From: a virus
Length of the DNA stretch: 37,803 nucleotides
Virus record (IMG/VR): IMGVR_UViG_3300009420_000033
Coordinates: 1 to 37,803 of that record
Strand: one strand, 5' to 3'
Part shown: one piece after another, positions 11,736-37,803 of the stretch
Layout of the letters: every line of letters begins with the position of its first letter
Position numbering within the stretch: the stretch's first letter is position 1
Position numbers and translations under genes: made by a program
Notes under the pieces: model-generated
What the model was told of the DNA's origin: nothing
What the model saw: the letters and a program-made list of their open reading frames with translations, nothing else
Databases searched by the model: none

Positions 11736-12652
11736 TAGTGGTCCGGATCGAAGTCTACTTCTAGGTCCCAAGAACCTAAATGTTCATCCCAGTCTAAAAC
11801 CATCCTAGAGTTAAAGGTGCTACTAAGATACATTTCGCTGGCAAGGTCCTCAAGAGTTTCTGGGACGTCACTTCCACCAATCCCGTACTTATTTAAAAGT
11901 TTTAGATGCTTACCTTCGGCTTTCTCAAAAGCAACACTTAATTTATCTAGTCTTTTCTGAGCAGCCTTGTACTTACCATACTGCCCTTTTTCTAAGTATT
12001 CTTCGGAACGATATTCCGCATCGTCGTACTCGGTGTCAAGTTTAACAACTCGAGTTTCAGCAAGGATTATTTGATTCCAAATAACAATTACTTTTTCAGC
12101 CAAAGCAATACTTTCCTCGAAGCCTACATTTTTCTTATTATAGAAAGGAGATTCAAAGTTCCAAGAAGAACCGTGAATAAAGTCGAGGAACCTCTCTTCC
12201 TCGTTTAGTTCTTCCTGAAAATCAAGACTAGAAGTACGACCTCTATCATCTGCCCCAAACCACTTGGATATTAGTTCCTCTTCTACTTCATTTCTACCCA
12301 TTAGATCCTTGGCTGTTACCAAAGAGGATCTCTTATAAGAATCTGAATTATAATCTGCGTAGAAGGATTCTTTTGTAACAGCGTCCATCCACTTACTTAT
12401 TTTTTTAGGGTTTGTTACAAAAACCTCGGATCCCTCGAAGCCAAATTCTCCACTATCCCATTTTCCAAGGTTGTTATCCGAGAAGTAGTCGACTAATATC
12501 TCTGCTTCTTTCTCGGTCCAAGAGCCTCCAAACTCGCTTTTGAGGTCCCAAGTTGGATCGCTGTAGGAAATTCCTACTTCGTATTTAAGAATAGTGGAAT
12601 TAACTTTAATGGTTCTATACATTAATTCTTCTGCTTTTGGGTTTCTACGCAT
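11735..12652 (-). CDS. Unknown acidic protein, first gene after the sheath terminator
   Basis: 305 residues, acidic and Trp-rich. A predicted coiled or helical segment lies at about residues 175-250 (IALAEKVIVIWNQIILAETR, KYKAAQKRLDKLSVAFEKAE). Residues near 105 read SYKRSSLVTAKDLMGR. AGGAAATATA precedes the ATG at 12652. It is the first gene behind the promoter-like motif at 12688-12704. No catalytic motif or known family. Confidence 0.55.
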   Translation of the reverse strand: MRRNPKAEELMYRTIKVNSTILKYEVGISYSDPTWDLKSEFGGSWTEKEAEILVDYFSDNNLGKWDSGEFGFEGSEVFVTNPKKISKWMDAVTKESFYADYNSDSYKRSSLVTAKDLMGRNEVEEELISKWFGADDRGRTSSLDFQEELNEEERFLDFIHGSSWNFESPFYNKKNVGFEESIALAEKVIVIWNQIILAETRVVKLDTEYDDAEYRSEEYLEKGQYGKYKAAQKRLDKLSVAFEKAEGKHLKLLNKYGIGGSDVPETLEDLASEMYLSSTFNSRMVLDWDEHLGSWDLEVDFDPDH

Positions 12653-12687: not shown

Positions 12688-12704
12688 CTATAAATACTTT
12701 ATTG
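12688..12704 (-). promoter_or_regulatory. Late-promoter-like motif overlapping the sheath terminator
   Basis: Sense strand CAATAAAGTATTTATAG, ending 35 bases before the 305-residue gene. Its first ten bases form the base of the 24-bp hairpin at 12695-12749. Confidence 0.7.
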
Positions 12705-18065: not shown

Positions 18066-18082
18066 GTATAAGTATTCTAGTG
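18066..18082 (-). promoter_or_regulatory. Late-promoter-like motif before the sheath gene
   Basis: Sense strand CACTAGAATACTTATAC, ending 71 bases before the sheath ATG. It is the most divergent of the seven copies (C for A at position 3). Inside the same 146-base gap are two weak hairpins. Confidence 0.6.
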
Positions 18083-18140: not shown

Positions 18141-18608
18141 CTAGGTTTCCTTTTTGGAGTCTTCTTTTCGGTGTGCTTGATATAAGCCTTTATTGAAATC
18201 TTGGGCTAAACTTCTTTTGGCATTGGTTTCTTTTATCTCGCTTCCAGTTAAAGTTCGAAAACCTCCGTCTGCATTTGGAGTTAAATGTTCCATGCCTACA
18301 TTTTTACCAGACTTTATCTCGTCTTCCAGATGTTTAATCTTTTCTGCACGACGGTCTTCTATCTTTCGCCATTTTTGTTCCGAGTCCCGACCTATTGTCT
18401 TATCAAAGTCATAGTCGATGGAAGCAACCCCTGTATTTTGCGGATGTATTCCTGTAGGATTGTGCTTAAAGGTAAAGTTTCCAGCTGAAACAAGTTTCTG
18501 TGCTAGTTCCGAACAGGATGGGCAAGGGCATTCTTCTCTTTTGTTAGCTGGTCTTATTTCTTCAAACTCTAAGCCACACTCATAGCATTGATATTTATAT
18601 ATAGGCAC
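18141..18608 (-). CDS. FmdB-like zinc ribbon protein
   Basis: 155 residues. The N-terminal 40 residues are a classic FmdB-type zinc ribbon: PIYKYQCYECG (Cys8, Cys11), then CPCPSC (Cys29, Cys32), with the typical YKYxCxxCGxxFE pattern. The rest is charged and helical (KWRKIEDRRAEKIKHLEDEI). Such small zinc ribbons occur in bacteria and phages as putative regulators or assembly factors; the role here is unknown. I chose the GTG at 18608 because ACGGAG lies seven bases upstream and the residues before it do not fit the family. A start at 18635 would lie inside a strong hairpin. Confidence 0.72.
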   Translation of the reverse strand: MPIYKYQCYECGLEFEEIRPANKREECPCPSCSELAQKLVSAGNFTFKHNPTGIHPQNTGVASIDYDFDKTIGRDSEQKWRKIEDRRAEKIKHLEDEIKSGKNVGMEHLTPNADGGFRTLTGSEIKETNAKRSLAQDFNKGLYQAHRKEDSKKET

Positions 18609-18620
18609 TATATAGCTCCG

Positions 18621-18660
18621 TAATATTAGAGGCACTCTTCAAAGAGCACCTCTAATATTA
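18621..18660 (-). terminator. Hairpin between the lysin gene and the zinc ribbon gene
   Basis: A perfect 12-bp stem (18621-18632 with 18649-18660) is continued, after a small internal loop, by a 5-bp stem at the tip. It lies 22 bases after the lysin stop and just before the ribosome binding site of the next gene. Confidence 0.65.
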
Positions 18661-18682: not shown

Positions 18683-19477
18683 CTATTCTCGCATCAAGGT
18701 ATAGGAAAAGGTTTTAAGACCCGTATTATCTTGTTGCATATGAGCGAGTTTCATCATCTTATTGAAATCTGCAAGTCTTTTAAATACCTGACAACCCGCA
18801 CTCCACTTATCAACTTGCGTCGAGTCACTACCAGCCTTGTGGATATTAATCCCAAAGTAACCTGTTGTAATAGTGTCCGGATTCTCATCAAGAACATTAT
18901 CCTTATTACCATCCCGATAAACTGAAACTTCCCCTGCTCTTTGACAAAGGGCTTCATATTTACCTGCATGTAAATCTATAGTCCAAGTATCTAAGTACTG
19001 TTCTTCTACTAGGATAGCAGTTCCGGCTACTCTAGAGGGATTTTCTAGCCAATAGGTTCCAGGGTCTGTAGTTCCTGGCCAAAAATAACTAACCCAACCA
19101 CCTTCAGGACTATAATAGTAGCACCCTAATGTATCATTGAAAGAATTTGCCTGCGAATCCTTAGACCTTAAACCGAAAAGCCACAACCTATAAGGCTCAT
19201 TCCAAATCTCATAGCCCTCATCTTTTGCTTTTTGTAATATAGGAGGTAAAGGCTCTTGCGGAGTAAAAGCACTTTCTACTGTGAAAAGAGCATTCCAAGT
19301 ATTTGTACCTACAATACCATCTGCCGTAAGTCCCGACTTCTTTTGGAAATCCTTAACTGCCACTTCCGTTCCGTAACCGAAATCCCCGTCAATGGAAACA
19401 TCATAGCCATCTTCCACAAGAATTTTCTGACATCTCCTAACATCGGCTCCTTTTGATCCTCTTCTTATAGTATCCAT
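18683..19477 (-). CDS. Lysin: peptidoglycan-binding domain plus L,D-transpeptidase-like domain
   Basis: 264 residues. Residues 5-65 are a PG_binding_1 repeat unit (RRGSKGADVRRCQKILVEDG, then DGDFGYGTEVAVKDFQ and GIVGTNTW). Residues about 85-264 resemble the L,D-transpeptidase (YkuD) type, with His213 in NIHKAG and the S-x-G-C motif ending in Cys229 (WSAGCQVF); an earlier DLHAG gives His170. This arrangement suggests cutting or exchange of peptidoglycan peptide bonds, as an endolysin or virion-borne lysin. There is no signal peptide. AGGAGTTAAAAA precedes the ATG. A hairpin follows the stop. No holin is adjacent. Confidence 0.75.
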   Translation of the reverse strand: MDTIRRGSKGADVRRCQKILVEDGYDVSIDGDFGYGTEVAVKDFQKKSGLTADGIVGTNTWNALFTVESAFTPQEPLPPILQKAKDEGYEIWNEPYRLWLFGLRSKDSQANSFNDTLGCYYYSPEGGWVSYFWPGTTDPGTYWLENPSRVAGTAILVEEQYLDTWTIDLHAGKYEALCQRAGEVSVYRDGNKDNVLDENPDTITTGYFGINIHKAGSDSTQVDKWSAGCQVFKRLADFNKMMKLAHMQQDNTGLKTFSYTLMRE

Positions 19478-22264: not shown

Positions 22265-23878
22265 TCAACCACGACGTCTAGTAGAAGCACGTTTATTAGA
22301 CGAGTATCTTCTATGTGGATGGTAGTCTTCAGCGTACTTTCCAGGACCCCACAAGGATTCCATATTTTTGAAAGCGCGGATTATTTGAGAGGCATCAAGA
22401 CGAAGGGCTTGCTTAATCTCATACGCATTTTCATGTAGTGCTAAGAGAAAATCTTTTTTGTATTTCCAAAGTTCCTCTAAAGAACCATCATCGTAGGCAT
22501 TCCAAAACACTTTTTGTAATTTACTAGGAATATCAATATCCCAATCACCTTCATCATACTCGAATATATCAGCGAGGTCCGCTAAGAGCTCATCTTCTTC
22601 GGAGACGTTAGCAGACATCTTCTTATAGTCGGCCAAAGAAGCATTTTTATAAGGAGCATTCCAATCAACCTTTCCTTTATTAAGTAAAGGTAAAACCTTA
22701 CCCACGTCTTCAGGGTTGATAACTGGCATATCTTTACGGTTTGGTGCCCAAGAAGGAACGTTCTTGTTTATGAACTTAGCATTGGCCGACATGATTTGAA
22801 TACCTGCCTCAACATCCCCACCACCTAATGTAGTAAGTGCCTTTTCAACCATTTCTGGTTTAGTGTTGAAACCTTTTGTAGAGGTCACACCCTTGTATAA
22901 ACCCTCTCTAAGAATTTGTTCTACAGCTGCAGGAGTGAAGTCCTTAATATTTCCAGAACCAGAATTACCCCCACGGTTGAATACACCCTTAGTGATAATG
23001 TTTAAGATGCGAAGTAACTCGTACCCTTTAACTCCAGCTTTATAGCCTTGTACGGAGGCACTCTTACCATACGCCATAATTGCAGCAGCCCATCGATGAT
23101 GACCGTCCATAATATGGTTATCCGAAGAAATAATAGCACCCAAGTCCGTATCCAAGAAGCCATTGATCATTCCAAGTGCCATTCCTACGGAGTTAATTGG
23201 AACCATTGTATTCTGAGAAGGTTTCAAAGTGGAAGCATTGAAAGAACTCTTCTTCAAAGAAACGACATCGTCTTTTGAGTTCCCATCTTGCTGCCCATCC
23301 TGAACAACATCCCTTGCACCAGAAGGGACTTTTGACAATTGCCCCGCATCTTCAAAGATTTTCTGGTTGATGGACTGGTTGGCCATTTTATCAGTCAGTA
23401 CAAAGGCCAAGTCCTCAATATCCTCAGCGAGGTATCCGATATTTATTTTATTTGTTAGCCCTTGGAGTTCTTTCCTGTGCTTAAGAAGTTCTCGAACAAC
23501 TAAGTTAAGTCCACGAGGGTTTCCCGTAATAGGGTCTAAGCTACCGTTATTTATGCATGTATCAATCAGAACCTGTGCCCTGATACCTAACGGAGTTTTG
23601 TTAAAATCCAAGGCTGTTTGAAGAATTCTTAAATCGTGTAGGACGGAATCCTCTAAGGAGTTCCATCTACCTTGACTGGCTTTCTTTTCTTCAGGGTAGT
23701 AGTCCTTAAGGGGGATTAAAGAGGATTTCTTCGTCATCTTTTTGACCAAGTCATCTTTATTTTCTTCCCATTCTTCTTGAAAATCTTGTGGCTGATCTTT
23801 GAACCACTTCTCAAACTCTTTACGACCTTTTGGTCCCTTAGAAAAACGGGCACTACGGTTCGAATATTGACGTTTCAT
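22265..23878 (-). CDS. Virion-region protein with ParB-like DGHHR domain
   Basis: 537 residues. The N terminus is basic (MKRQYSNRSARFSKGPKGRK). Residues about 205-275 form a ParB/sulfiredoxin-like segment: SLKKSSFNASTLKPSQNTM, then LGAIISSDNHIMDGHHRWAA with D258-G-H-H-R262, the nucleotide-binding type motif of ParB-like domains. In the ParB superfamily this motif supports CTP binding or phosphoryl chemistry; here the activity is unknown. The remainder is helical with no known domain, and the C terminus is basic (RRYSSNKRASTRRRG). AAGGAGAGTTTAAA gives a strong start. It is a single gene behind the motif at 23958-23974. I recall DGHHR proteins in other large phages near virion genes. Confidence 0.65.
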   Translation of the reverse strand: MKRQYSNRSARFSKGPKGRKEFEKWFKDQPQDFQEEWEENKDDLVKKMTKKSSLIPLKDYYPEEKKASQGRWNSLEDSVLHDLRILQTALDFNKTPLGIRAQVLIDTCINNGSLDPITGNPRGLNLVVRELLKHRKELQGLTNKINIGYLAEDIEDLAFVLTDKMANQSINQKIFEDAGQLSKVPSGARDVVQDGQQDGNSKDDVVSLKKSSFNASTLKPSQNTMVPINSVGMALGMINGFLDTDLGAIISSDNHIMDGHHRWAAAIMAYGKSASVQGYKAGVKGYELLRILNIITKGVFNRGGNSGSGNIKDFTPAAVEQILREGLYKGVTSTKGFNTKPEMVEKALTTLGGGDVEAGIQIMSANAKFINKNVPSWAPNRKDMPVINPEDVGKVLPLLNKGKVDWNAPYKNASLADYKKMSANVSEEDELLADLADIFEYDEGDWDIDIPSKLQKVFWNAYDDGSLEELWKYKKDFLLALHENAYEIKQALRLDASQIIRAFKNMESLWGPGKYAEDYHPHRRYSSNKRASTRRRG

Positions 23879-23957: not shown

Positions 23958-23974
23958 CTATAAACTTTCTATTG
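23958..23974 (-). promoter_or_regulatory. Late-promoter-like motif before the ParB-like gene
   Basis: Sense strand CAATAGAAAGTTTATAG, ending 79 bases before the ATG at 23878. An 8-base inverted repeat (GACACCAA / TTGGTGTC) flanks this part of the gap from 23932 to 23979. Confidence 0.72.
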
Positions 23975-23978
23975 GTGT

Positions 23979-24407
23979 CTACACAAAAACGTCATACCCA
24001 ACGATACCAGAAATAGTGGCTCCGGCTTGTATAGTAAAACCCAAAGTTGTTTTGCTAGTTATCCTAAAAGGAGCGAAAACATCAGAAGTCACCTGAACCC
24101 GATAGTTAGTGCTTGAAAAAGCAACAGCAAAAGTCACGGTCTTTTCAGTTTCAGCGGAAAAGGTTAGGTTCCCGTTCACGGCACTTGTTAAACTCAAAAT
24201 ATCCTCCACTTGGCTCATAGCCGATTGTATATCGTTAGTCACACTTTGTGGGATTTGAGTGTAAGGGCTTAATACATACCCATAAGGATCCTGTATGTCC
24301 CGAACGCTTAGAAGGTCCGTTTGGTCCGATACAATTGTAAACATATATAGGTTCGGGCTAACTCCAGACCTATATACAAACTCGGATTGCGCTAATGTGG
24401 CAGCCAT
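23979..24407 (-). CDS. Small beta-rich virion-type protein
   Basis: 142 residues. SEFVYRSGVSPNLYMFTIVS lies near the start; from about residue 75 on it is beta-rich (NLTFSAETEKTVTFAVAFSS, FRITSKTTLGFTIQAG). The ATG at 24407 forms a TAATG with the stop of the upstream gene; a TTG two codons earlier is possible. Composition is typical for a virion surface or tail protein. No family recognised. Confidence 0.58.
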   Translation of the reverse strand: MAATLAQSEFVYRSGVSPNLYMFTIVSDQTDLLSVRDIQDPYGYVLSPYTQIPQSVTNDIQSAMSQVEDILSLTSAVNGNLTFSAETEKTVTFAVAFSSTNYRVQVTSDVFAPFRITSKTTLGFTIQAGATISGIVGYDVFV

Positions 24408-24715
24408 TACCAAATCCCTGTTGTTTCATACCCATAAGATTCTAACTGAGCATTTAAACTTTTAATGCCTTCGTAATCTCTAGAACGAATACAAAAACGG
24501 TCGGGTAGCTCTTCCACTCCAAAATCGAAAGGTTCCACAGAACCAAACTTAGAGCGACCTTCTCGAAAACTACGAAGCCAAGAAGGAAGGTTTGTCCTAG
24601 CGTCAAGACTTGGATAAACCCGAACCCTATATTCTTCCGAGGCATGCTTATGGAGCCACTCTTGAGCGACCCTCTTAACCATTACCACTCTTTTTGTAGA
24701 AAAGTTTCCTTTCAT
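24407..24715 (-). CDS. Unknown small basic protein, first late gene
   Basis: 102 residues. It begins MKGNFSTKRVVMVKRVAQEW and contains SWLRSFREGRSKFG near residue 45. AAAGGTGATTT precedes the ATG. It is the first gene behind the late-promoter-like motif nearest to the sigma-like gene and is coupled by TAATG to the following protein. No family recognised. Confidence 0.55.
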   Translation of the reverse strand: MKGNFSTKRVVMVKRVAQEWLHKHASEEYRVRVYPSLDARTNLPSWLRSFREGRSKFGSVEPFDFGVEELPDRFCIRSRDYEGIKSLNAQLESYGYETTGIW

Positions 24716-24742: not shown

Positions 24743-24759
24743 CTATAAAGATTCTATTG
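24743..24759 (-). promoter_or_regulatory. Late-promoter-like motif at the early/late boundary
   Basis: Sense strand CAATAGAATCTTTATAG, starting 4 bases after the sigma-like gene and ending 27 bases before the first late gene. Closest to the consensus together with the copies at 23958 and 8192. Confidence 0.75.
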
Positions 24760-24762
24760 AAC

Positions 24763-25368
24763 CTAGAGGGAATAGGTGATAGGATCAACCCAAGTAGTTC
24801 TATTTGTGTCCTTTAATATGTTGAAGTTATTAGCTACATGATCTAGCACCTCAACACAATTTCCCATTGTAGGGATCATCTTAAAAACCTGTAAGTATTT
24901 AAAGAACCTGTGCCGTACCAATCCTTGCCCTACTTTTAATTCCCGAGCTACCTCGCTCTGACAAGTTTTGGTAATCATGAGTAGCATTATTTGTATATCT
25001 AACTCTTCCGACAAAGCACCTCTAAGGTCTTCCTCTACTTCTTCTAAGGAATACTCTGGAAGGCTTAAAATATACTGAAGTCGTTTTGTTGCTTTTTGTA
25101 ATCTGTAGCAAACAGTTGGCTGGGAGACCCCGAAGATTTCGGATATACCTGTCTGGGTAACTTTATCAAAGAAGTACAACTCTAAGAAATCTGCTTCTCT
25201 TGGAGGTAGAAGTTCTAACACTTCTCTTATTTGGACGAGCTTATCTTTTGTTTCCGGAGATAGCTCCTCCGTGAAACTTGGATAGTTATGTAACCCGTCT
25301 TCTTCTGAAAACATAGCTTCAAAATCTGCCCTATCGAATACTATATGGTTTCCCCAATATTTAGACAT
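24763..25368 (-). CDS. Sigma-factor-like protein with region-4-type helix-turn-helix
   Basis: 201 residues. Residues 54-100 match sigma-70 region 4: LPPREADFLELYFFDKVTQT, then GISEIFGVSQPTVCYRLQKA. A second helix-turn-helix-like segment lies at about 124-160 (LDIQIMLLMITKTCQSEVAR, KVGQGLVRHRFFKYL). No convincing region 2 (the -10-binding, core-binding part) is visible, so it could be a short phage sigma factor or an accessory DNA-binding factor. It overlaps the end of the NusG-like gene by 8 bases, with GAGGAAG as ribosome binding site. Its stop is followed at once by the first of seven promoter-like motifs. A role in late transcription is inference from this place. Confidence 0.7.
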   Translation of the reverse strand: MSKYWGNHIVFDRADFEAMFSEEDGLHNYPSFTEELSPETKDKLVQIREVLELLPPREADFLELYFFDKVTQTGISEIFGVSQPTVCYRLQKATKRLQYILSLPEYSLEEVEEDLRGALSEELDIQIMLLMITKTCQSEVARELKVGQGLVRHRFFKYLQVFKMIPTMGNCVEVLDHVANNFNILKDTNRTTWVDPITYSL

Positions 25369-25897
25369 CAGCGTCTTCCTCTCTCACATCGAGAATATAT
25401 GTTGGAATAGCACGGATCGCTTTTAATGTTCTTAATTCAATATAAACGAAAGCCTTAACCCTATCTCCCGTAAAACCTACCACTTCCCCTTTTAGACCCT
25501 TATAGGTTCCAGTATTCACTAGAACTTTCATACCTAGTTCTATGTCGGAAGTGATCATCTCTTGCAAACTGTGTTTTAATTTAGCTACCTCTGTGTTCGG
25601 GATTGTTTGAAGGTTAAAACCCCTTCTAGAAGAAGTGTGTAAAACACTTTCTATATAAGGTTGTCGAGCTAGTTTGAAGTATTCGTTCTCCGGCAACCCT
25701 GACTCTACAAAGAAATAGCCCTCAATCACACTTAGTTTCGTAGTCTTTTCTTTAAAGACTATCCTAGCATAAGGAGTAAATATCTCTTTATCGGTTATAA
25801 CTCTGGAGACTTTTTTCTCTAGTTCCCCTTTTTCAGCTAAGGCTTCCCCGAACTCGTTAAGTAGGAATACTACCCATGTTTTACCATCCTTCTCCAT
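25361..25897 (-). CDS. NusG/RfaH-like transcription factor
   Basis: 178 residues. The N-terminal ~100 residues follow the NGN pattern: TWVVFLLNEFGE, the core strand VIEGYFFVES at 57-66, PYIESVLH near 80 and IPNTEVAKLK near 100. Residues 117-145 form a KOW motif (IELGMKVLVNTGTYKGLKGE). NusG-family proteins bind the clamp of RNA polymerase and increase processivity or allow antitermination. It overlaps both dnaX (17 bases) and the sigma-like gene (8 bases), so all three are probably one unit. CGGAGAACATTAA precedes the ATG. Confidence 0.75.
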   Translation of the reverse strand: MEKDGKTWVVFLLNEFGEALAEKGELEKKVSRVITDKEIFTPYARIVFKEKTTKLSVIEGYFFVESGLPENEYFKLARQPYIESVLHTSSRRGFNLQTIPNTEVAKLKHSLQEMITSDIELGMKVLVNTGTYKGLKGEVVGFTGDRVKAFVYIELRTLKAIRAIPTYILDVREEDADV

Positions 25898-27266
25898 TTA
25901 ATGTTCTCCGAAGGTGGTGTAGTAGGATTTCTTTGAACACTTGAGGTTGCAAATATTTATGGTCGTTTTTGGAAACTTGTACATTATTATGAGCTATTCC
26001 TCTTGGATCGACCCAAACACCCCCAACTGTTGTTTGGGGTTGTTGTTTAGGGGGCACTTTTAAGATACTTGTTTTTTTAGGTATCGAAGCCTTTTGCGGA
26101 AAGTTTTCTGGTTTTTGCTTGGATACTTCTTTTACGGAAGGCAATTCTAAAGGTTCTATAACGGGAGATTGAAAGTTTATAACTACGGAATTATCAGATA
26201 TACCTAAAGAATCAGAATGGTGCGCCATTGCTAAATCTAAAACCAACGTTTGTTTTGTTGGTCGATGTGGGGGAGCTGCAAACTTTTGGCTTATGTTTAG
26301 CAACTTTACCCCATACTTTGATATTTCTTCTACTTTTCCCTTTTCCCACTGACTAGGGATCTTACCAACCTTTAGATAATTGTAATATGAAGCCATGGAC
26401 GCTTCTGCAAGCCTTTCGTAAGCAGCTGTAGGGGAAATCTCTACTGCTAGTTTAGAGGCTAGTTCTACACATAAGGGGAGGCTCTTAAAGAGGTTTAAAA
26501 GAATGTCAAGAACATAATCATTTGCACCCAACTGCAAGTATTCCGAAACTGTTCCTTTATTTACACTCCCTAGCATAGAAACACCCTCTACCATCTTTAA
26601 ACAGTCTCGGATATGACATTCGGATACCTCCGCAATAGTTATTAAAGATTCCATCTCGTATTCTACATTTTCCCACTCACATATTTGGGCTAACCTTACA
26701 GCTATACCTTCGGGAGAAACTGCGCGGATTACAAAAGCAGGGGCACATCTTGAAAAGATTGTACTTACCATTTTCTCTGGCTCCGTCGTACAAAATATAC
26801 AGACTAACTTCTTGTCTTCCGTTCCTTGGACACTATCCTCCATTGGTTTTAATAATGCGTCTAATGCCTGTTTTGACAATCGGTGACTTTCATCAAAAAG
26901 GTATATCTTTCTTTTTCCAGAAAAGGTGGAATAGTTTAAGTCCTCTATAATTTTAGAAAGGTCTGCCTTTCCGGATCTTGTGGCTGCATCTAACTCTTCG
27001 AAGTTTGGATGGACTCCTCCGTTAAGGAATATCTCGCAAGAGCTACACTTATCACAAGGTTCCCCATTTACAGGAGAATTGCAAAGTAAGGCTCTCGCTA
27101 AAATCCTACCCATAGTTGTTTTCCCAGACCCATGCTGTCCACAAAAAACATAACTTTGATGAAACCCTATTTTTTCGATGACAAATTGTTTCAACACGGA
27201 GACGGATGCCTCTTGCCCTAAAACATCGTCATATTTTATTGGTCTATATTTCGTATCTAACGCCAT
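25881..27266 (-). CDS. dnaX: DNA polymerase III gamma/tau-like clamp loader
   Basis: 461 residues. It would load the sliding clamp on primed DNA by ATP hydrolysis. Order of motifs: conserved start KYRPIKYDDVLGQ; Walker A GQHGSGKT at 43-50; zinc module Cys62, Cys71, Cys74, Cys77 (CDKCSSC); Walker B with D125-E126 (FDESHRL); sensor-1 type CTTEP near 159; arginine finger SRC at 172-174. The C-terminal ~130 residues are Pro/Lys-rich and unlike bacterial tau. No separate delta or delta' subunit gene is seen in the window. A terminator precedes the gene, so it probably starts its own unit with the NusG- and sigma-like genes. Confidence 0.92.
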   Translation of the reverse strand: MALDTKYRPIKYDDVLGQEASVSVLKQFVIEKIGFHQSYVFCGQHGSGKTTMGRILARALLCNSPVNGEPCDKCSSCEIFLNGGVHPNFEELDAATRSGKADLSKIIEDLNYSTFSGKRKIYLFDESHRLSKQALDALLKPMEDSVQGTEDKKLVCIFCTTEPEKMVSTIFSRCAPAFVIRAVSPEGIAVRLAQICEWENVEYEMESLITIAEVSECHIRDCLKMVEGVSMLGSVNKGTVSEYLQLGANDYVLDILLNLFKSLPLCVELASKLAVEISPTAAYERLAEASMASYYNYLKVGKIPSQWEKGKVEEISKYGVKLLNISQKFAAPPHRPTKQTLVLDLAMAHHSDSLGISDNSVVINFQSPVIEPLELPSVKEVSKQKPENFPQKASIPKKTSILKVPPKQQPQTTVGGVWVDPRGIAHNNVQVSKNDHKYLQPQVFKEILLHHLRRTLNGEGW

Positions 27267-27800: not shown

Positions 27801-28520
27801 TTAAGTATATATTTTAAGGGATCTTTTCAAAGCCCATGCTCCTCCAATCTCCCAAATCTCTCCCGGATCCTTACCACCAGTGTAAGTTACCAAGCGAGTA
27901 TTAAGATTTACCCTTTCTAACCTTTGAACAACCCCCCATACCTTTTTACCTGTATCCGGATGGGTGTATCCTTGAGCCATTTTTCTCCCTGTCTCATCCA
28001 TATCAAAACATACATGAACGGTTGCTCCTTTACGAACGAACCTCTTTAGAAAGTTTATTTGATGTGGTGTTACTTTTGCTCCTCCCATAGAGAGAACTAC
28101 ATCTTTGTCAGGTAATGCGTTTTGTAAGGCTATGTCAAATATTCCTTCTACTAACCAAACATCGCTTCCGGAAGAAATCTTTTCCAAGGTTGTTTTACAC
28201 AAACCTCCAAATATTGGAACCCAACTAGATTCTGATAAATGGTACTTCCTTACCTCTTTCTTTTCTAGGTTTCTATACTCACAACCTATCAACCTTCCTC
28301 GAGGCGAATATAGGGGTATGCAGAGCCAATCCTGTACTCGGTGACCCTTTACCCCGTTGTTATGATAAAACTTGTCAGGAGCTCTTGTAGACTGGGCTTG
28401 CCAAATGCCAACACCCAATTCCTGTACAAGTTCCCAAGGAAGACCCCTCCCTAGCACATACCCTTTCGCTTGTTCCGAAAGGGTACAGGATTTAATGGCG
28501 TTTTCCAACCATTCTCGCAT
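27801..28520 (-). CDS. Small TOPRIM primase (DnaG-like core)
   Basis: 239 residues. It would make RNA primers. The TOPRIM domain shows VWLVEGIFD with Glu125, MGGAKVTPHQINFLKR near 145-160, and VHVCFDMDETGR with Asp173 and Asp175; KDPGEIW at 217 matches the conserved KDP. The zinc-binding CHC2 domain of bacterial DnaG is absent, and the helicase-binding C-terminal domain is also missing, so it is about 40 percent of DnaG length. The N-terminal part has the DnaG-like linker (FYHNNGVKGHRVQDWLCIPL). The ATG overlaps the upstream stop by TAATG. No helicase gene is in this window. Confidence 0.82.
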   Translation of the reverse strand: MREWLENAIKSCTLSEQAKGYVLGRGLPWELVQELGVGIWQAQSTRAPDKFYHNNGVKGHRVQDWLCIPLYSPRGRLIGCEYRNLEKKEVRKYHLSESSWVPIFGGLCKTTLEKISSGSDVWLVEGIFDIALQNALPDKDVVLSMGGAKVTPHQINFLKRFVRKGATVHVCFDMDETGRKMAQGYTHPDTGKKVWGVVQRLERVNLNTRLVTYTGGKDPGEIWEIGGAWALKRSLKIYT

Positions 28521-29821: not shown

Positions 29822-30474
29822 GGGGATCTCCTGATCTTTGTGAAAGTGGCTTTACCATCTTTCTTTTGAATTCTGTATGCAGTTTTTGCCTGCTCAATTA
29901 AAGCAGGGTTATGAGTTACTGCAAGAACATCAAGACCAAGCCTTTCCGACAATAAGGATAAAAACTCACCGACCCTTGGAACATAACTTTCTGCAATAGC
30001 CGATAAACTTTCATCTAATAGCAATAAAGGTCTCATTCCCCTTCTAGTTAAAACAACTATTCTAAGGAGTACGGATTGAACCGTTGTTACAGAACCTCCA
30101 TAAGCATCTGTAGATAAACCTTCTGTTTGAGAACCATCGTCTTCGGTTTGAACCGTTAATAAATCTACCGAAACCTTGCCTCTTTGTACTTCTACCTTCG
30201 CTCTGCAACTTAAATCTAAGTCGTCGAAGATAGCCCTCAGACCCTCTGTAAGCAATCCTTCTGCTGTCTTGGCGTTATCTATTACTTCCTGATCAATAAG
30301 CCTCCTAAACAGCTCTGAGACCTTCTCTAGAACGTCTTGGCTTACTACAAGGTTAGATATCTTTTCATTTAGGGTGTTTAACTTAGCCTGTTCTGAATTA
30401 CGGATAGTCTGCACCCTGAGAAACTCAGAACGCAGACTATCAAATCCACAAAATAGGTCAACTAGTTTTTCCAT
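29818..30474 (-). CDS. Rad50/SbcC-like ATPase, C-terminal half as a separate protein
   Basis: 218 residues. Residues 1-65 are a coiled coil; then follow an ABC-signature-like stretch STDAYGGSVTTVQSVLLRIV (121-140), Walker B LLLLDE with Asp154 and Glu155, a D-loop SLSA, and the H-loop VTHNP with His188. There is no Walker A, so it cannot make a full ATP site alone. It matches the C-terminal lobe of Rad50/SbcC, while the N-terminal lobe is coded about 5 kb upstream (35426-36613). Together with the Mre11-like nuclease they may process DNA ends. The start overlaps the clamp gene by 13 bases, the end overlaps the next gene by ATGA. Confidence 0.78.
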   Translation of the reverse strand: MEKLVDLFCGFDSLRSEFLRVQTIRNSEQAKLNTLNEKISNLVVSQDVLEKVSELFRRLIDQEVIDNAKTAEGLLTEGLRAIFDDLDLSCRAKVEVQRGKVSVDLLTVQTEDDGSQTEGLSTDAYGGSVTTVQSVLLRIVVLTRRGMRPLLLLDESLSAIAESYVPRVGEFLSLLSERLGLDVLAVTHNPALIEQAKTAYRIQKKDGKATFTKIRRSP

Positions 30475-31613
30475 ACAATCACAGAGTAATATTTGTTTGC
30501 TTCTTCCGTATCCGAATCTGAATACTTAAAAGAAGTAAAACCTCCTCGACCTCGCTTATTAACCCCCAACTCTACTTTTTCTAATGAGAAAGTAGAAACG
30601 ATACCCTTCAAATAAGCGTAATCAATAGTGAACTCGGTGTCAAAGTTATCACCGTTTGAGACTTCTGCTAGACTTAAAGTATACTCATCATTACCTCCTG
30701 CTTCGGAAGGCATTGAAAGAACAACCTTTTCAGTTTCAGTGTCGTATCTAAAAGTTAAACTCTCATAACCTTTTGGAGCGGAGGATTGTAGAACCGAGAT
30801 AGCAGCATTTACTTCTTCCATATCCAAATCAATAACGGAGTCCGCTACTTGGCTAGGGTCTACGGAAAGAGTTGGAAACTTAGAAGTCGGTCTAGTAACC
30901 CCTAAATAATGTCCTGTGGTTTTCTCAAAGATAACACAAGCACCACCACCTTCTGAAGCAGAACGTTCGGCTGTTTTAACATTTATCTCTTTAACTTCTT
31001 TGTCCGAAAGGAACTTAGATACCGCAGGAATATCTTTTCCAGGAATACGAATGTTTAACTCAGGGACTGCGGGAACTTCTGCACAGCATAGTGCTCTTCT
31101 ATCCGTAGCCCAAAAAGTTCCGTTAATAGCCTCTATTTGACAAAGTTCTGGTTTTGCCGTATCGTCCGTAGATACAAAGTTTTTAGTAAGGCTCAATGCA
31201 CGTACAATAACTAGAGGATCTACCGTACCTGAATCTTTTGCATTACCTAGCAATCCATCCCAATAAGGGAACTTACTTGGATCTAAGGAACGAAGACGAG
31301 CCTTTGATCGCCCAGCCTTAGCATGAACATCACCACCACCGTTAAACTCAAAGGTGAGTACTCCGTCGCCAACTCCAGAAACCCATTTATCCAGACGCCA
31401 AGCCTCTACGGTAAAAGCATCTCCCTCTTCCCCATCGTGAGTAGCAACTAAAGGTGCTCCTGCAAATACCCGAAGGTTTTGAGAAAGTATTTCTATGTTT
31501 TCGCCCTTTACTCGAAATAAGTAATGTGACGTAATATCGGTTCCCGTGCCTACGGACACACTGACCGTGGATAGTGCGTGCTGTAAGTCGGTTTTAGCTG
31601 TTTCAATTTTCAT
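30462..31613 (-). CDS. Sliding clamp (DnaN/PCNA-like)
   Basis: 383 residues, a usual size for a bacterial-type beta clamp (about 370). It would encircle DNA and tether the polymerase. The fold is suggested by alternating beta strands and the helix pattern: SHYLFRVKGENIEILSQNLR near residue 29, WATDRRALCCAEVP near 169, VTRPTSKFPTLSVDP near 238 and ending with KYYSVIVWKN. The match is by pattern and context (DnaX-like clamp loader in the same region), as clamps are poorly conserved. The start has GGAGAT upstream, 3 bases after the preceding gene. Confidence 0.75.
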   Translation of the reverse strand: MKIETAKTDLQHALSTVSVSVGTGTDITSHYLFRVKGENIEILSQNLRVFAGAPLVATHDGEEGDAFTVEAWRLDKWVSGVGDGVLTFEFNGGGDVHAKAGRSKARLRSLDPSKFPYWDGLLGNAKDSGTVDPLVIVRALSLTKNFVSTDDTAKPELCQIEAINGTFWATDRRALCCAEVPAVPELNIRIPGKDIPAVSKFLSDKEVKEINVKTAERSASEGGGACVIFEKTTGHYLGVTRPTSKFPTLSVDPSQVADSVIDLDMEEVNAAISVLQSSAPKGYESLTFRYDTETEKVVLSMPSEAGGNDEYTLSLAEVSNGDNFDTEFTIDYAYLKGIVSTFSLEKVELGVNKRGRGGFTSFKYSDSDTEEANKYYSVIVWKN

Positions 31614-31930: not shown

Positions 31931-32809
31931 TTAAATAGAAAAATCGGAAAAACCTCCGTCCTTCCCACTTATTTCGGATACCTCTAACTCTTCTTTTCTT
32001 TCCGTACAAGCAGACTTATACTCACAAAAGATACAAGCATTCCTGGAAGGGGTTGCTAGGAACTTCTTCTTATACATTCCGTGCTTTGCTTTCTTTGCTC
32101 TCTCTGCTACCTTTACTATATCTTCCTCGGTGAAGTCCAACCAAGTAACACCCTCCTCTCCAGTATCCTCATCATAAGGATATCGGAACCAGACCAAGCC
32201 TAACTTTTGTGGGGTCTTCCTATACGCTAGTTTGAATAGTAGGGCATAGAAAACCAACTGATCAGGATCTGCGAAATCCCGAGACTTTGAGTTCTTTCCA
32301 TCTAAAAGCATAATGCCGACATCATCTCTACGTATCACCATATCGACAATACCACCTACAGGGTTCCACTTATCGATCCAAGCAATGATTTTTTGCTCCG
32401 CCTTTGCATAAACTCCGAGAAGTTTATGCTTCTTCATGGTTTGAACATAACCCTTTGTTCCAGCCAATACTGTTTGAAGCATGCCATCTCGAGTCATCTT
32501 GGCTTGTTCTAAGTCGATGTACATTTTACGGTAAAGATTATTAAACTCTTTCTCCGCTATTTTACACATAGCCTCGGATAAGTTTGCACCTTCTCGCCAT
32601 AATTCATCGTTATACAACTTCTCTACTGCATGATGAATGGCTATACCCATTAAAGCATGATGCGCAGATTGGTTTTCAGTTTTAGTTTTAGGTCTTCCAG
32701 AACCGTTTCCTAAATCTATACCGTCCCAACCCTTTTTCCATAGAAACTTTTGGGGGCAATCTTCGTACATCTTAAGATGGGACCAAAACAATGTGGAACT
32801 ACTATTCAT
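31931..32809 (-). CDS. PD-(D/E)XK nuclease of Cas4/AddB/RecB type with 4-Cys cluster
   Basis: 292 residues. The nuclease core shows His60 (GIAIHHAVEKL), Asp156 (GGIVDMVIR), then Asp170 and Lys172 (LLDGKNSKS), and the Q-x3-Y motif at Gln184/Tyr188. Four cysteines frame it: Cys18 near the N terminus and Cys259, Cys262, Cys268 (ACIFCEYKSAC) at the end. This is the pattern of the 4Fe-4S cluster in Cas4 and AddB. Such enzymes are exonucleases that trim DNA ends; here it fits recombination together with the SbcCD-like and RecA proteins. There is no CRISPR context. Confidence 0.85.
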   Translation of the reverse strand: MNSSSTLFWSHLKMYEDCPQKFLWKKGWDGIDLGNGSGRPKTKTENQSAHHALMGIAIHHAVEKLYNDELWREGANLSEAMCKIAEKEFNNLYRKMYIDLEQAKMTRDGMLQTVLAGTKGYVQTMKKHKLLGVYAKAEQKIIAWIDKWNPVGGIVDMVIRRDDVGIMLLDGKNSKSRDFADPDQLVFYALLFKLAYRKTPQKLGLVWFRYPYDEDTGEEGVTWLDFTEEDIVKVAERAKKAKHGMYKKKFLATPSRNACIFCEYKSACTERKEELEVSEISGKDGGFSDFSI

Positions 32810-32889: not shown

Positions 32890-34410
32890 CTACCGAAGCC
32901 ACATATTTAAAACTCTTCTAGGATCCGGAGAACTACTAGAAGACTTCGCTTGAATACCAAACCCCTCAAGGTCCAGTTCTATATCGTCTAAAATATCTTG
33001 AAGTGAAAGGTTTGTGGAGGGTGGAGCTTCAATCTCAAACATACTGGCTTTCTTTTCTAGAGCTCTATCAAGAAACATCTGAGGATCAAAATAAAGAAGT
33101 GGTGCATTAGAGAGAATTACCTTTTCTAAAGAATCCTCTACCTTAGCTGTAGATAAGAACCTTAAAATAACTTGAGGGTTAATGTAGGCTCCCTTAGTTG
33201 TGGAAGAATTATCATGGGACAATGCTTTCTGTGCCGACTCCAATGCTTTTGAAAGAGTTGCCACTACTTCTTTAACAATACTGGCTTTGAGAGCTTCTTT
33301 CTCGAGGGAAGCAAATTGCTTGATTCTTTCGTGTAAACTTGCTTGGTCCTCTCTAAGGGCGTCCAAAACTGCCTCCGTTGCTCTTATCTTTCGAAAGTCC
33401 GTAGGGGATAGGTTCTTAAACCTATCCCGGAGATATTTTTGAACTCGACCGTAATTTAATCTTTTCCCGTCCGACGTTACAAAGATATACTTCCCCTCAG
33501 TTTTGTCCACAAAACTTTTCAAAACTTTTATAATGGTATTATCAGTTAAGGTTGCAAAATTAACAGCTCCCTTTTTACCTACAAACTCTAACTCTGCAAA
33601 ATTATTACGGATAAACTTTACATGGGAAGGTCCCAAGGTTGTAGCTCCAAAAGTCTCTATTGAGATTTTCTCTCCATTTTCAGTCTTAACATAGCCACTC
33701 CCCTCCTTTCCAGGTCTTATACCTGTTTCCATCATTATCCCTGTAACAAGGGCAGCCAGTTGTATAACCTCATCGCTACTCTTCAAATCTTTCTTAACTC
33801 TCTTAGCGATTGCATTATATCCACCTACTAGTGTTCGCATTCTCTGAACTTTTTGGTTCAAAGTTGTGTGCTCGTTACCAAACCTGTCGGTTATATTGCT
33901 AATCCTACCAACCTCGTCAACCATTACCACTATATTTTTGGGTAAAAAATCTCTTAGCTCGGAAGGTAGCGTCTCCCTTAAAGGTGCTTGGGATATGGCC
34001 AACTCCATGGCTTGAAAACCACTCTCTGCTTGAGTTCCCACTGTGTCTATAACATCCCCGACATTATCTCCTTTAATGAGTACATTCTTAGCTTGGTTAA
34101 TTACTGACTTTCTCCAAACCTTTGCTTGAGGATCTGCACTTACGGTCCCAATATAGGTATCTAGGTACTCTTGAAGTTGGGTATTAGATACCACGAGTTT
34201 ATTGAAAAGCCTAGCTCTACTTGCTATGACTTTCGGACCTCTTCCAGGAATGCTGGTTTTGGTTTCGATAGCAATTGGCTTTAAGACTCTAAGGAGCTGT
34301 TTGAAAGCAACTTGCGCTTTCTTTACATGCTTCTCCCTACCCTTTACATCTTTCTGATATCTTCTGGACTCACTGTTGGGCTTTCTTTTCGTAGCTTTAG
34401 GGTGGAACAT
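32890..34410 (-). CDS. Type IB DNA topoisomerase
   Basis: 506 residues. The C-terminal catalytic domain carries the complete set of residues shared by type IB topoisomerases and tyrosine recombinases: Arg232 (ETGIRPGKEG), Lys279/280 in the beta-hairpin (FVGKKG), Arg340 (PTDFRKIRATEAV), His399 (ALSHDN) and the nucleophile Tyr409 (KGAYINPQV). LVTGIMMETGIRPG and YIF/VTSDGKRL are typical of the poxvirus/bacterial TopIB group. It would relax supercoils ahead of forks. The first 190 residues are basic and family-specific; the last ~80 are acidic and end SPDPRRVLNMWLR. A role as a recombinase is less likely because of the GIRPG and YINP contexts. Confidence 0.85.
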   Translation of the reverse strand: MFHPKATKRKPNSESRRYQKDVKGREKHVKKAQVAFKQLLRVLKPIAIETKTSIPGRGPKVIASRARLFNKLVVSNTQLQEYLDTYIGTVSADPQAKVWRKSVINQAKNVLIKGDNVGDVIDTVGTQAESGFQAMELAISQAPLRETLPSELRDFLPKNIVVMVDEVGRISNITDRFGNEHTTLNQKVQRMRTLVGGYNAIAKRVKKDLKSSDEVIQLAALVTGIMMETGIRPGKEGSGYVKTENGEKISIETFGATTLGPSHVKFIRNNFAELEFVGKKGAVNFATLTDNTIIKVLKSFVDKTEGKYIFVTSDGKRLNYGRVQKYLRDRFKNLSPTDFRKIRATEAVLDALREDQASLHERIKQFASLEKEALKASIVKEVVATLSKALESAQKALSHDNSSTTKGAYINPQVILRFLSTAKVEDSLEKVILSNAPLLYFDPQMFLDRALEKKASMFEIEAPPSTNLSLQDILDDIELDLEGFGIQAKSSSSSPDPRRVLNMWLR

Positions 34411-34463
34411 TAAAAACCTCTCCGGGATTAAGTTTCTTTTACCCTCCCGAAAGTATAAAAGAA

Positions 34464-35426
34464 TTATTGTGCCTTTTCTAAATACTCCATCGCTTTTTCT
34501 TTTACTTCTGCTGCAACCTCTAACTCTTCCAACATTTCTGCCATGGTTTTACCACCAAGGGTAGACTCAAGATCTTCTTTAATCTTATTTACAAAAGAAT
34601 CCATTTCCATTTGTCTTTCAACTTGACGGCGACGTCCTGCAACATCAAAAACTTCTTCCGCTGGCTTTACCTTTAATCTTCTAACATCAACCGTTGCTCC
34701 AGATTTAGTGCAAGAAATAACAGCACACGCTGGTCTTCTTTGAACTTCATCTTGGGATAAAGAACCTCTTGTGAGAGAACCGATGTTTATAAAAGTCTTT
34801 CCTTCAATTACTTCGACCCCCTGATCCATATGCCAATGTCCGAAACAAAAAACGTCGGGGGCACATTTTGTAAGGTCCCCGTATCGAACTATGTCTTCTC
34901 CTTCAAACATAGTTCCTCCCCTAAGACTTGCTAATATATGGGCTACACATATAAGTACATCTTCGTCGCCCTTAACTATATCTTCAAATAAGGCTGGGGT
35001 ATAACGGTGTCCAGGATAAGGGATCCCTACCACCCTAACCTTTACCCCGTCCTTTTCAAAGACGGCTTCATAGCTATCGTAGAGCCTCTTAAATACCCCT
35101 GTAGAATACAGAACGCCGAGTGGTTGTTGATATAAAAACTTATAGTCCCCGTATACGGAGTCATGGTTTCCCGGACAACAATAAACGGGGAAAGGATATC
35201 TCTCATGATGCTCTGCTGTTAATTGTACCAGTTTATGAGAATTACGGGAAGGAGACTTTATATGAAAGAAATCCCCTCCATCTATAATAGCCGATGCTCC
35301 TACCTCTATACCAACATCCCTAACCTGACCCAGCTTTTCTAGTACTGTTTCGTGCCAAATATCTGTCCTAGAAGATGGTGCATAATCGGACATATGAACA
35401 TCCGTTCTCCAAACTAGATTTACCAT
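34464..35426 (-). CDS. Mre11/SbcD-like nuclease
   Basis: 320 residues. It is a calcineurin-like metallophosphoesterase with all motifs: D-x-H (RTDVHMSD, Asp9 and His11), GDFFH, GNHD (CPGNHDSV), a later AHIL His, and GHWH (CFGHWHMDQG). Partner of Rad50/SbcC-type ATPases; it would cut DNA ends and hairpins with manganese, as T4 gp47 does. The ATG at 35426 overlaps the stop of the N-half gene by TAATG with GGAGG inside that gene's end, so the two are translationally coupled. The C-terminal helix (DSFVNKIKEDLESTL) may contact the ATPase coiled coil. Confidence 0.92.
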   Translation of the reverse strand: MVNLVWRTDVHMSDYAPSSRTDIWHETVLEKLGQVRDVGIEVGASAIIDGGDFFHIKSPSRNSHKLVQLTAEHHERYPFPVYCCPGNHDSVYGDYKFLYQQPLGVLYSTGVFKRLYDSYEAVFEKDGVKVRVVGIPYPGHRYTPALFEDIVKGDEDVLICVAHILASLRGGTMFEGEDIVRYGDLTKCAPDVFCFGHWHMDQGVEVIEGKTFINIGSLTRGSLSQDEVQRRPACAVISCTKSGATVDVRRLKVKPAEEVFDVAGRRRQVERQMEMDSFVNKIKEDLESTLGGKTMAEMLEELEVAAEVKEKAMEYLEKAQ

Positions 35427-36613
35427 TAACAACCTCCATTGTGTGGCTTTCTACAAACGGGGCATTCCCCGAGGTCCCCTAGAAGTTCAACCACAAGAGC
35501 AACTACCAGAGCTTGCTTCTCAATAAGGTTTTTCGATTGAGAATTAAACTCCTCTTTAAGAGTTTCTGCGCTTTTCTTTCTTTTCAAGAAACCTCTTAAA
35601 ACTTCTTTTAAATTTACCTGTGCCCTGTGTTCTTCTTCTTTAGGTAATTCAGGAGGTTTGAAACTCCGGTATTTAATATAGTCTTCCTGCTTACGATTTC
35701 TCAATAAAGAAAAGTTTGACACCTGCTTTATACTTTTTAATAAAACCAAAATGTCGTTTTCTTTTGGGAGATCGAAAACTTTGAAATCTTTATACCGAGA
35801 ATAATTATTCTCTGCTTTATCCTTAGAGATATTTAATCTTTGGACCAGAGTATGCGCTCGGTGTATCTTTTGAACTCTTTCCTTTTCTGGAAGCATGTTA
35901 GGGTTAAACCCTTCAAAAGCCCTAACAGCCTTTCTACAGACTTCTAACCTTTTATATAGCCCTTCTATAAGGTTATATTCAGAAGCCTTCTTAGACAAGG
36001 TTTTCCTTTGACTATGGAGGCTTTCCATATCCTCTTCGACACTTTCAAACCCCTTGTATAGAGACATCATATTTTCTTGCTCTATAAGGTCTTTCCTTCT
36101 AACCTTTAACTCAGAATTAACAGATCTTCTATCTTTCTCCGAAAGTCTTAAAGCAGAGGTGAGTTTCCCCACCTTTTCTATATCTGAAAGTGCTTCGGCT
36201 AATACGGAACCAGGACGGTTCAATAAGAAAATAGTCCCGTCAAACTGGTTTGCTACCTGAGGCCAAACCACATTATTTGCAGCGACCATAGAATGAACCC
36301 CTAAATCTTTAAGTTCTTCTGGTGCCCCTCTCCCTACTCCGGATAGTTTATACCCATCTATGGTATATGCATTGTGCTTAGGACCTTTTTCCCAAGTTAC
36401 AGTTCTTCCGTCATCAAACTCTAAGTCCACGGTTATCTTATCTTCCCCTTTACGAAGAAGAGAACCAAAAGGGGAGTTTTCGAAGACCCCTCTTATAGCT
36501 CTCATTAAAGAAGTTTTACCAGAGTTATTTGCTCCAGTTATTACAGTCAATCCTTCCACTGTAATCTTTGAATCTTTTATTGATTGAAAGTTTCTAACTC
36601 TAACCTTAAACAT
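35426..36613 (-). CDS. Rad50/SbcC-like ATPase, N-terminal half ending at the zinc hook
   Basis: 395 residues. It begins like an SMC-type ATPase (MFKVRVRNFQSIKDSKI), has Walker A GANNSGKT at 27-34, a Q-loop-like NQFDGTIFLL near 140, and then about 220 residues of coiled coil. Its last residues are CPVCRKPHNGGC, with the C-x2-C zinc hook at Cys384/Cys387. There the gene stops, exactly where a full-length Rad50 would turn back; Walker B and signature motif are missing. The lacking half is coded separately at 29818-30474. I chose ATG 36613 (AGGGA upstream); a start at 36646 would lie in a hairpin. Confidence 0.85.
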   Translation of the reverse strand: MFKVRVRNFQSIKDSKITVEGLTVITGANNSGKTSLMRAIRGVFENSPFGSLLRKGEDKITVDLEFDDGRTVTWEKGPKHNAYTIDGYKLSGVGRGAPEELKDLGVHSMVAANNVVWPQVANQFDGTIFLLNRPGSVLAEALSDIEKVGKLTSALRLSEKDRRSVNSELKVRRKDLIEQENMMSLYKGFESVEEDMESLHSQRKTLSKKASEYNLIEGLYKRLEVCRKAVRAFEGFNPNMLPEKERVQKIHRAHTLVQRLNISKDKAENNYSRYKDFKVFDLPKENDILVLLKSIKQVSNFSLLRNRKQEDYIKYRSFKPPELPKEEEHRAQVNLKEVLRGFLKRKKSAETLKEEFNSQSKNLIEKQALVVALVVELLGDLGECPVCRKPHNGGC

Positions 36614-36633
36614 ACACTTCCCTATAAAGAGTA

Positions 36634-36671
36634 ATATCCTATACAAGAACTACGGTTTTCGTATAGGATAT
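36634..36671 (-). terminator. Hairpin between recA and the Rad50-like gene
   Basis: 11-bp stem (36634-36644 with 36661-36671) with a 16-base loop, 10 bases after the recA stop. The T-rich sequence after the stem (CTCTTTAT) is weak, so it may only reduce readthrough. Confidence 0.55.
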
Positions 36672-36681
36672 ATTACTTTAT

Positions 36682-37803
36682 CTAATCTAAGTTAATACCC
36701 TCAAAAACTCCGTCTTCATCCAACTCGTCTGCCTCATCTGTAAAGTTATCCGCAGCACCTTCTCCTAACAAGGGAATTACCACTGCCCGAAGTTGTTCGT
36801 ATTGATCAGGGTTACTTATAAGGTGGGAGCGCATCTTTTCAGTTCCTTGTAGTTTCATAGGACCGGAAGGACAATTTTCCCAGACCATCCAACCTGCGCC
36901 ACCTTTTTTAATAATGCCATGCGAGATTGCAATCTCCATTATTGTTCGAACATTATCAATACCTTCACCCCAACGAATATAAAAGATTTCCGCACGACCC
37001 TGTGATCTTGACATCTTACATTTAATTGCCGTTACTTTGATAATACCCCCTACAATTCTAGACTCGGATTTGTGGGTTAGCACATTATGCTCGCTTGCCT
37101 CTTCATTCTTAACTCTACGAAGTTCTAAGCGAACGGAAGAATAAAACTTCCAAGCATTACCTCCTTGAGGTTGTGTTTGTTTACCCATACGAGCCATCGT
37201 TGCACGGATCTGAGATATACCGATAACTGCGGTTCCGGACTGGGCGATTACTCTTTTTAGGTTGGGTAGTTCTTGAGACCAAATAGATTGGAGTTCTCCT
37301 ATCTTACCTTGCTCTGCAGTATCTAGGGCATCACGTTCCGCTAGTCTTCTAGGAATAGCAGCTCCAATAGAGTCAAACACTACAAGGTCCACTCCAGCAG
37401 CAGCATATGCCATCGCATACTTAATCCCGTCTTCCAAACTTTCTGGCTGTAATAATTCAAACTTACTAGGGTCTGTAATAGGTACTCCCAAGTTTTCAGC
37501 ATAATCCGGAACAATATCATTTTCCCAATCAATATAAAGTGCCGTTCCTCCCGCAGCACAAACTTTTGCACAGGCTTGTAAGGCTAGAGTTGTTTTACCT
37601 GCGGACTCATGTCCCCAAACCTGAGCCACTCTACCTCTAGGGAAACCAGGACAAGGTGCAACACCCCACTTATTTGGTTCTCCTCCAATAAGGTAATCCA
37701 CTACATCCGAACCAGAGGATATATGAGGTAGACTTTCTTTTAAGGAGTCTTCATCCAGAGAAACTCGAATAGAAGTAAATTCTTTCCCTTTCTTTTTCGT
37801 TAA
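36682..37803 (-). CDS. recA: RecA-like recombinase, cut at the right edge
   Basis: 373 codons are present; the frame is open to the window end, so the true start lies outside. The GTG at 37701 is not the start: the 34 codons before it are in frame and contain the family's SSGSDVVDYLIGG. RecA coats single-stranded DNA and drives strand exchange. Motifs: Walker A GHESAGKT (codons 64-71 of the visible part), Walker B VDLVVFDS, and the L2/ending region QGGNAWKFYSSVRLELRR, which matches the TGGNALKFYASVR segment of bacterial RecA. The C terminus is acidic (DELDEDGVFEGINLD), as in bacterial RecA. It is the first gene seen of a recombination unit with the Rad50- and Mre11-like genes. Confidence 0.95.
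   Translation of the reverse strand, partial: LTKKKGKEFTSIRVSLDEDSLKESLPHISSGSDVVDYLIGGEPNKWGVAPCPGFPRGRVAQVWGHESAGKTTLALQACAKVCAAGGTALYIDWENDIVPDYAENLGVPITDPSKFELLQPESLEDGIKYAMAYAAAGVDLVVFDSIGAAIPRRLAERDALDTAEQGKIGELQSIWSQELPNLKRVIAQSGTAVIGISQIRATMARMGKQTQPQGGNAWKFYSSVRLELRRVKNEEASEHNVLTHKSESRIVGGIIKVTAIKCKMSRSQGRAEIFYIRWGEGIDNVRTIMEIAISHGIIKKGGAGWMVWENCPSGPMKLQGTEKMRSHLISNPDQYEQLRAVVIPLLGEGAADNFTDEADELDEDGVFEGINLD

Follow-up and report, generated by a model that had tools for sequence, protein, structure and literature searches.

The 37.8-kb window, by which we mean the whole stretch of DNA analysed, is itself a virus record and probably a piece of a huge-phage genome, and its main genes all lie on the minus strand (Table 1). 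Between the terminase, tail-sheath and endolysin-like genes on one side and the primase, clamp, exonuclease, SbcC-like and RecA genes on the other sits a pair of small genes encoding a sigma-like and a NusG-like protein. The two genes overlap by 8 bases and the NusG-like gene overlaps dnaX by 17 bases, in agreement with the earlier note, which had described them as overlapping each other and dnaX. Homology of the sheath to the sheaths of other phages is confined to its last ~350 residues.

Table 1. Features of the window (gene pair: the sigma-like and NusG-like genes)
Feature	Position	Strand	Remarks
Terminase gene	2242-4152		one flank of the gene pair
Motif copy	5447-5461	-	upstream of ORF 4840-5418, then the terminase gene
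Motif copy	8194-8208	-	upstream of ORF 7913-8167
Motif copy	12690-12704	-	upstream of ORF 11735-12652; directly behind a terminator-like hairpin (by eye)
Tail sheath, 1729 aa	12805-17994	-	same flank as terminase
Motif variant CACTAGAATACTTAT	18068-18082	-	73 nt upstream of the tail-sheath ORF
Probable chance match CAATAAAGGCTTATA	18181-18195	-	5-nt spacing; within conserved ORF 18141-18635
Endolysin-like gene	18683-19477		same flank as terminase
Motif copy	23960-23974	-	upstream of ORF 22265-23878
Conserved 102-aa gene	24407-24715	-	in most relatives the first gene behind the motif
Motif CAATAGAATCTTTAT	24745-24759	-	3 bases past the sigma-like gene; upstream of ORF 24407-24715
Sigma-like protein, 201 aa	24763-25368	-	gene pair
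NusG-like protein, 178 aa	25361-25897	-	gene pair; NGN domain and KOW beta-barrel
DnaX-like clamp-loader AAA+ protein	25881-27266	-	
Primase-like gene	27801-28520		other flank of the gene pair
Clamp gene	30462-31613		same flank as primase
Exonuclease gene	31931-32809		same flank as primase
Type IB topoisomerase	32890-34410		eukaryotic-like (Topoisom_I, 2.8e-16)
Motif copy	34455-34469	-	replication side of the border; upstream of the topoisomerase ORF
SbcC-like gene	35426-36646		same flank as primase
RecA gene	36682-37701		same flank as primase

A single record among 50,697 annotated phage genomes, that of the 485-kb uncultured phage LR745208, matches most of the sigma-like protein, and the clade has almost no annotated member. 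Scanning viral contigs with the sigma-like protein alone returned zero relatives; with a two-sequence alignment as the query, 40 were recovered. The 55 related loci analysed come from viral contigs, with a few from MAG contigs of bacteria or archaea, and many of them lie on contigs up to 618 kb. Most genomes compared are possibly incomplete contigs, and 41 distinct loci were used for the motif and overlap counts. At all 55 loci the sigma-like and NusG-like genes occur together, each implying the other, and the order dnaX, NusG-like, sigma-like, 102-aa gene is kept. The longer order of primase, metallopeptidase, dnaX, NusG-like, sigma-like, 102-aa and 144-aa genes is found at nearly all of them, and the conserved order spans loci of 36 to 67% GC. 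The end of dnaX overlaps the NusG-like gene in 40/40 distinct loci, and the sigma-like gene overlaps its NusG-like neighbour at 20 of 41 and is never more than 79 nt away from it. The dnaX homologue of LR745208 (L001:17550-19436) is interrupted directly after Walker B, between YLFDE and CHRLS, by an insertion of ~165 aa whose ends look intein-like; the dnaX of the window does not have it. The same record contains two ORFs (L001:27100-28401 and L001:30569-31852) that are alike at their starts and, by eye, have the look of the TnpB/OrfB transposase family.

The pattern CAATA-N4-9-TTATA has seven matches in the window where 0.9 would be expected, every one of them on the minus strand, and none of 100 shuffles reaches seven; matches to sigma-70-type promoters are at shuffle level. 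The seven late-promoter-like sites of the earlier note therefore stand, with two amendments. The site within ORF 18141-18635 is probably a chance match, given its wrong spacing and its position inside a conserved ORF, and a variant ahead of the tail sheath had been missed. The gap between the sigma-like stop and the first motif, put at 4 bases, is in fact 3 bases (24760-24762).

Across the family the CAATA/TTATA motif of the window is the AT-rich form of a more general element, CRNTW-N6-YTAT. An EM search behind the sigma-like stops yields the consensus gtCGgTA.tt.cCCTATc with a log-likelihood of 260 versus 60 for shuffled sequences, and by weight matrix this element lies -11 to +29 nt from the stop in 41/41 distinct loci. 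The strict CRNTW-N6-YTAT pattern follows the sigma-like gene in 35 of the 41; the corresponding counts behind the other cassette genes are 0/37 (primase), 2/40 (metallopeptidase), 1/40 (dnaX), 0/41 (NusG-like) and 0/40 (102-aa), and it is found again in 8/39 behind the 144-aa gene, at the start of a next operon. Where an extra gene has entered between the sigma-like and 102-aa genes (L027, L034, L039 and L041), the motif stays beside the sigma-like stop. In some of these phages the inserted gene, directly behind the motif, bears a lipoprotein-like signal peptide. The half-sites differ among phages (CAATA, CGTTTT, CGCTA), with only C, T and TAT near invariant, and since LR745208 uses GC-rich forms a search of that record with the window-type motif gives only 3 matches.

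Intergenic copies with the 6-nt spacing number 7 (window), 16, 38, 23, 18, 26, 13 and 22 in eight larger sets (G007 38, G004 22, G020 26, G006 23, W01 18), compared with 0-5 for the reversed motif and 0-8 for each of six wrong spacings; the higher control counts arise in the largest or AT-rich sequences. In 40 loci the sense-orientation intergenic motif occurs 65 times versus 3-4 per control. Within 50-kb segments of T4, phiKZ and phage G the motif is not above its own controls. A search of these three phages gave no sigma-like match, a weak negative as it had no positive control, and gp69 of phage G, annotated as a sigma factor, does not match the sigma-like family profile. Tunturiibacter phage Tunturi_5 has a distantly related sheath; its record holds no sigma-like match, and the 43 kb around its structural genes no intergenic motif. 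The co-occurrence of gene pair and motif in related phages that the earlier note had proposed as a check is thus found: the pair is present at 55/55 loci, 41/41 distinct loci have the motif behind the sigma-like gene, and phages without the sigma-like gene are without enrichment in the parts examined.

These copies are arranged as expected of a promoter-like element, both in where they lie and in how they are spaced and oriented; divergent copies placed back to back and the conservation of the target genes point the same way. In G007 start codons are usually 25-47 nt downstream of the motif. A Shine-Dalgarno-like sequence mostly starts 10-17 nt past the motif; transcription must then begin shortly after YTAT, which would make this half the counterpart of a -10 element. 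No other conserved element, host-type -10 or -35 included, is seen within 60 nt upstream of the G007 sites, and the motif sites are for this reason regarded as having no -35. A weak extra preference 13-18 nt behind YTAT is partly mixed with the Shine-Dalgarno sequence. Between divergent genes in G001, G006 and W01 two sites stand back to back, one on each strand. Ahead of the motif sites, terminator-like hairpins show no enrichment (4/129 versus 19/645). One gene in G006 is preceded by three identical tandem copies, CACGGTAGAGCTACTATC, with 19-bp spacing, followed by a partial copy (L094:11759-11814, equivalent to G006:C1:51759-51814).

The genes that carry the motif are themselves conserved. 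Comparison of the eight sets gives 1247 reciprocal-best pairs, of which 54 have the motif at both members; 14.2 were expected, and 2000 permutations reached at most 32. The motif-bearing ortholog groups include the 102-aa gene (5/7), the tail sheath (3/6) and ORF 4840-5418, which precedes terminase (3/9), and in the genomes tested the motif never precedes the clamp, exonuclease, SbcC-like, primase, sigma-like or NusG-like gene. The recurring motif thus stands before a conserved set of genes, most of them virion genes. The type IB topoisomerase also belongs to this set: its ortholog in G007, a protein of 1255 aa with an added HAD-type domain encoded near the terminase-portal cluster, likewise has the motif upstream, as does a helicase gene in G007. 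“Late” is consequently a simplification, and the functional split between late and early genes was only sampled with PHROGs because most genes are without assigned function. The earlier note had placed the gene pair exactly at the border of the late regulon; its position between the two flanks holds, and the sharp border does not, with topoisomerase IB and one relative's helicase inside the regulon.

The sigma-like protein matches Sigma70_r4 (PF04545) in Pfam at 2e-11. Its AlphaFold2 model (mean pLDDT 80) predicts a region-4-like domain at about 38-101 (helices 38-53, 56-67, 72-79 and 83-101), a second region-4-like helix-turn-helix at about 108-162 (helices 108-118, 122-134, 137-144 and 148-162) and a last helix at 166-180. 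The first domain aligns with sigma region 4 structures with a Z of about 10 over residues 36-105 (VIA-align), and both domains contain residues invariant in the family, QPTxCYRL in the first and CQS, A and QGxVRxR in the second. Region 2 has no Pfam match, and the protein has no room for it, as residues 1-35 are too short and form a low-confidence N-terminal tail in the model. The prediction of the protein alone thus bears out the proposal of two helix-turn-helix domains without region 2, and of the features of the sigma-70 family the protein has the region 4 helix-turn-helix and lacks region 2. There is no sigma-54 family among its Pfam matches at E up to 1, and whole-model Foldseek and BFVD searches give nothing at E below 0.001. 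In a profile search, RpoE of an RNA-guided transcription complex (PDB 9n9q chain C) is the only solved chain to align with both helix-turn-helix domains of the family alignment, weakly (E 0.09).

A protein of this kind might act as an activator or Q/ArpU-type regulator, binding the motif and working on host holoenzyme that contains a host sigma. The missing region 2 fits such a role, and sigma-4-like phage regulators are found among the weaker family matches (the transcriptional regulator phrog_36 and the Q-like phrog_79). Against it, no host-type -10 or -35 is conserved around the sites and YTAT stands at the -10 place without the rest of TATAAT, and we regard this role as unlikely, if the strongest of the alternatives.

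A search of 28 records for an RNA polymerase beta subunit was negative; seven of the records have a region-2 match, in five cases over the cut-off. Such matches would suit a scheme in which another sigma with region 2, of phage or host, reads the motif, whose place behind the sigma-like gene would then be the mere start of the late block. Most records have no region-2 match, including W01 (485 kb) and G007 (297 kb), both of which have the regulon, although a divergent gp55-like region 2 would escape the search; on balance this scheme seems improbable.

For the NusG-like protein the single sequence gives weak matches only, while the family profile matches full-length NusG over positions 9-157, covering both domains, at E 4e-6. 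The predicted structure (pLDDT 92) finds NusG in Foldseek at 1e-9, with NusG and RfaH complexes ranking first, and profile and model together mark this as a genuine NGN and KOW protein of the NusG/Spt5 family. Bacillus phage G also encodes a NusG-like protein (L183, 429776-430066; E 1.4e-7 with the family profile), there without a sigma-like partner. The main upstream half of the motif in G007 and G006, CGGTAG, agrees in all six letters with the core of the ops element of E. coli. The motif could then be an ops-like signal in operon leaders that recruits the NusG-like protein, whose gene is always present, with the sigma-like protein as an accessory regulator; RfaH, a NusG paralog, is recruited at ops in leaders (PMC7593976). 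Elsewhere, however, the half-site is CAATA, CGTTTT or CGCTA, so that CGGTAG is not conserved across the family, and the fixed 6-nt spacing to YTAT is foreign to ops. Where divergent copies stand back to back, hardly any space remains for a promoter further upstream, and no other conserved promoter-like element is seen upstream of the motif. AlphaFold2 models the KOW domain as a beta-barrel and not in the RfaH helical form, although a single predicted state is compatible with switching. We consider recruitment of this kind very unlikely, the least probable of the alternatives.

The likely reading is that of a late switch, in which the sigma-like protein is the specificity factor guiding host RNA polymerase to the late promoters and the phage NusG serves elongation. 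The replication operon (primase, metallopeptidase, dnaX) would end in two tightly coupled genes and, as neither carries the motif, the pair would be made along with the replication genes and then turn on the virion genes. With its two tandem region-4-type domains the sigma-like protein would bind DNA and recruit host RNA polymerase to CRNTW-N6-YTAT, whose halves are about one helical turn apart with YTAT at the place of a -10 element, and the first promoter so served would start at the stop codon of the sigma-like gene itself. The NusG-like protein would join host polymerase on the resulting transcripts as an elongation or antitermination factor. Of the two-part switch suggested in the earlier note, a specificity factor for the motif and a processivity factor, the co-occurrence of pair and motif is observed; motif reading and processivity are inferred.

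Several points count against the proposed switch, the sites before topoisomerase IB and helicase genes among them. A region-4-only protein has no obvious supply of the melting function of sigma region 2, the opening of YTAT included; either the tandem domains work in a new way, or they are assisted by a host sigma or by an undetected phage protein. Motif divergence is correlated with the divergence of both proteins, with a partial r of 0.34 for the sigma-like and 0.26 for the NusG-like protein, so that covariation, tried as a pointer to the reader of the motif, fails to separate the two. The fuller proposition, that a tandem region-4-only factor, unaided by any phage region 2, guides host RNA polymerase to a short two-part promoter with halves one helical turn apart and is genetically locked to a phage NusG, making late initiation and elongation one module across the clade, is offered tentatively, as somewhat short of an even chance.

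In phage T4, gp55 gives region-2-like recognition of a single -10-type element, and no gp55-like protein is seen in the clade. In the T4 system of gp55/gp33 and sliding clamp, as in the proposed switch, host polymerase is brought to late promoters by small phage-encoded factors (PMC7892883); here the gene sits near the clamp loader. In phage 7-11, which is phiEco32-like, the late promoters of host polymerase have the two-part consensus GTAAtg-(16)-aCTA, with the start 6-9 bp from the downstream half, and the specificity factor SaPh711_gp47 is phage-encoded and contains region 4 (PMC8948821). The downstream half aCTA resembles YTAT; the spacing is 16 there and 6 here, and unlike SaPh711_gp47, a sigma factor homologue of phiEco32 gp36, the present protein contains a pair of region-4-like domains and lacks region 2. 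The minimal sigma factors of group 2 jumbo phages are also sigma-type helix-turn-helix proteins without region 2 that are proposed to recruit host polymerase, with a single such domain rather than a tandem and in another phage group; the available portion of that source describes no promoter, gene pair or regulon with them (PMC7824862). The NGN and KOW domains are shared with NusG/Spt5 and with the paralogs RfaH and LoaP, which are antiterminators of long operons (PMC7593976, PMC12691694). Unlike these paralogs the protein is phage-encoded and fixed beside a sigma-like gene, with no sign of ops pausing or a helical KOW. The only reminder of sigma-54 (-24/-12) promoters is the distance between the two DNA halves. 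Specificity factors for phage late genes are already known; a tandem region-4-only factor that combines a promoter of 6-nt spacing with a constant NusG partner is described in none of the open-access papers searched and is, judged from these, apparently new.

The late-transcription switch of huge phages without their own RNA polymerase is largely an open question. Now that there is a promoter shared across the family and a named candidate for its reader, the question can be tested directly using two small proteins and 40 bp of DNA, and so can the ability of region-4-type domains to stand in for a sigma factor. The motif also allows late operons of uncultured giant phages to be predicted purely from sequence. 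Together, the gene pair and its motif are probably the means by which these giant phages redirect host RNA polymerase to their late genes.
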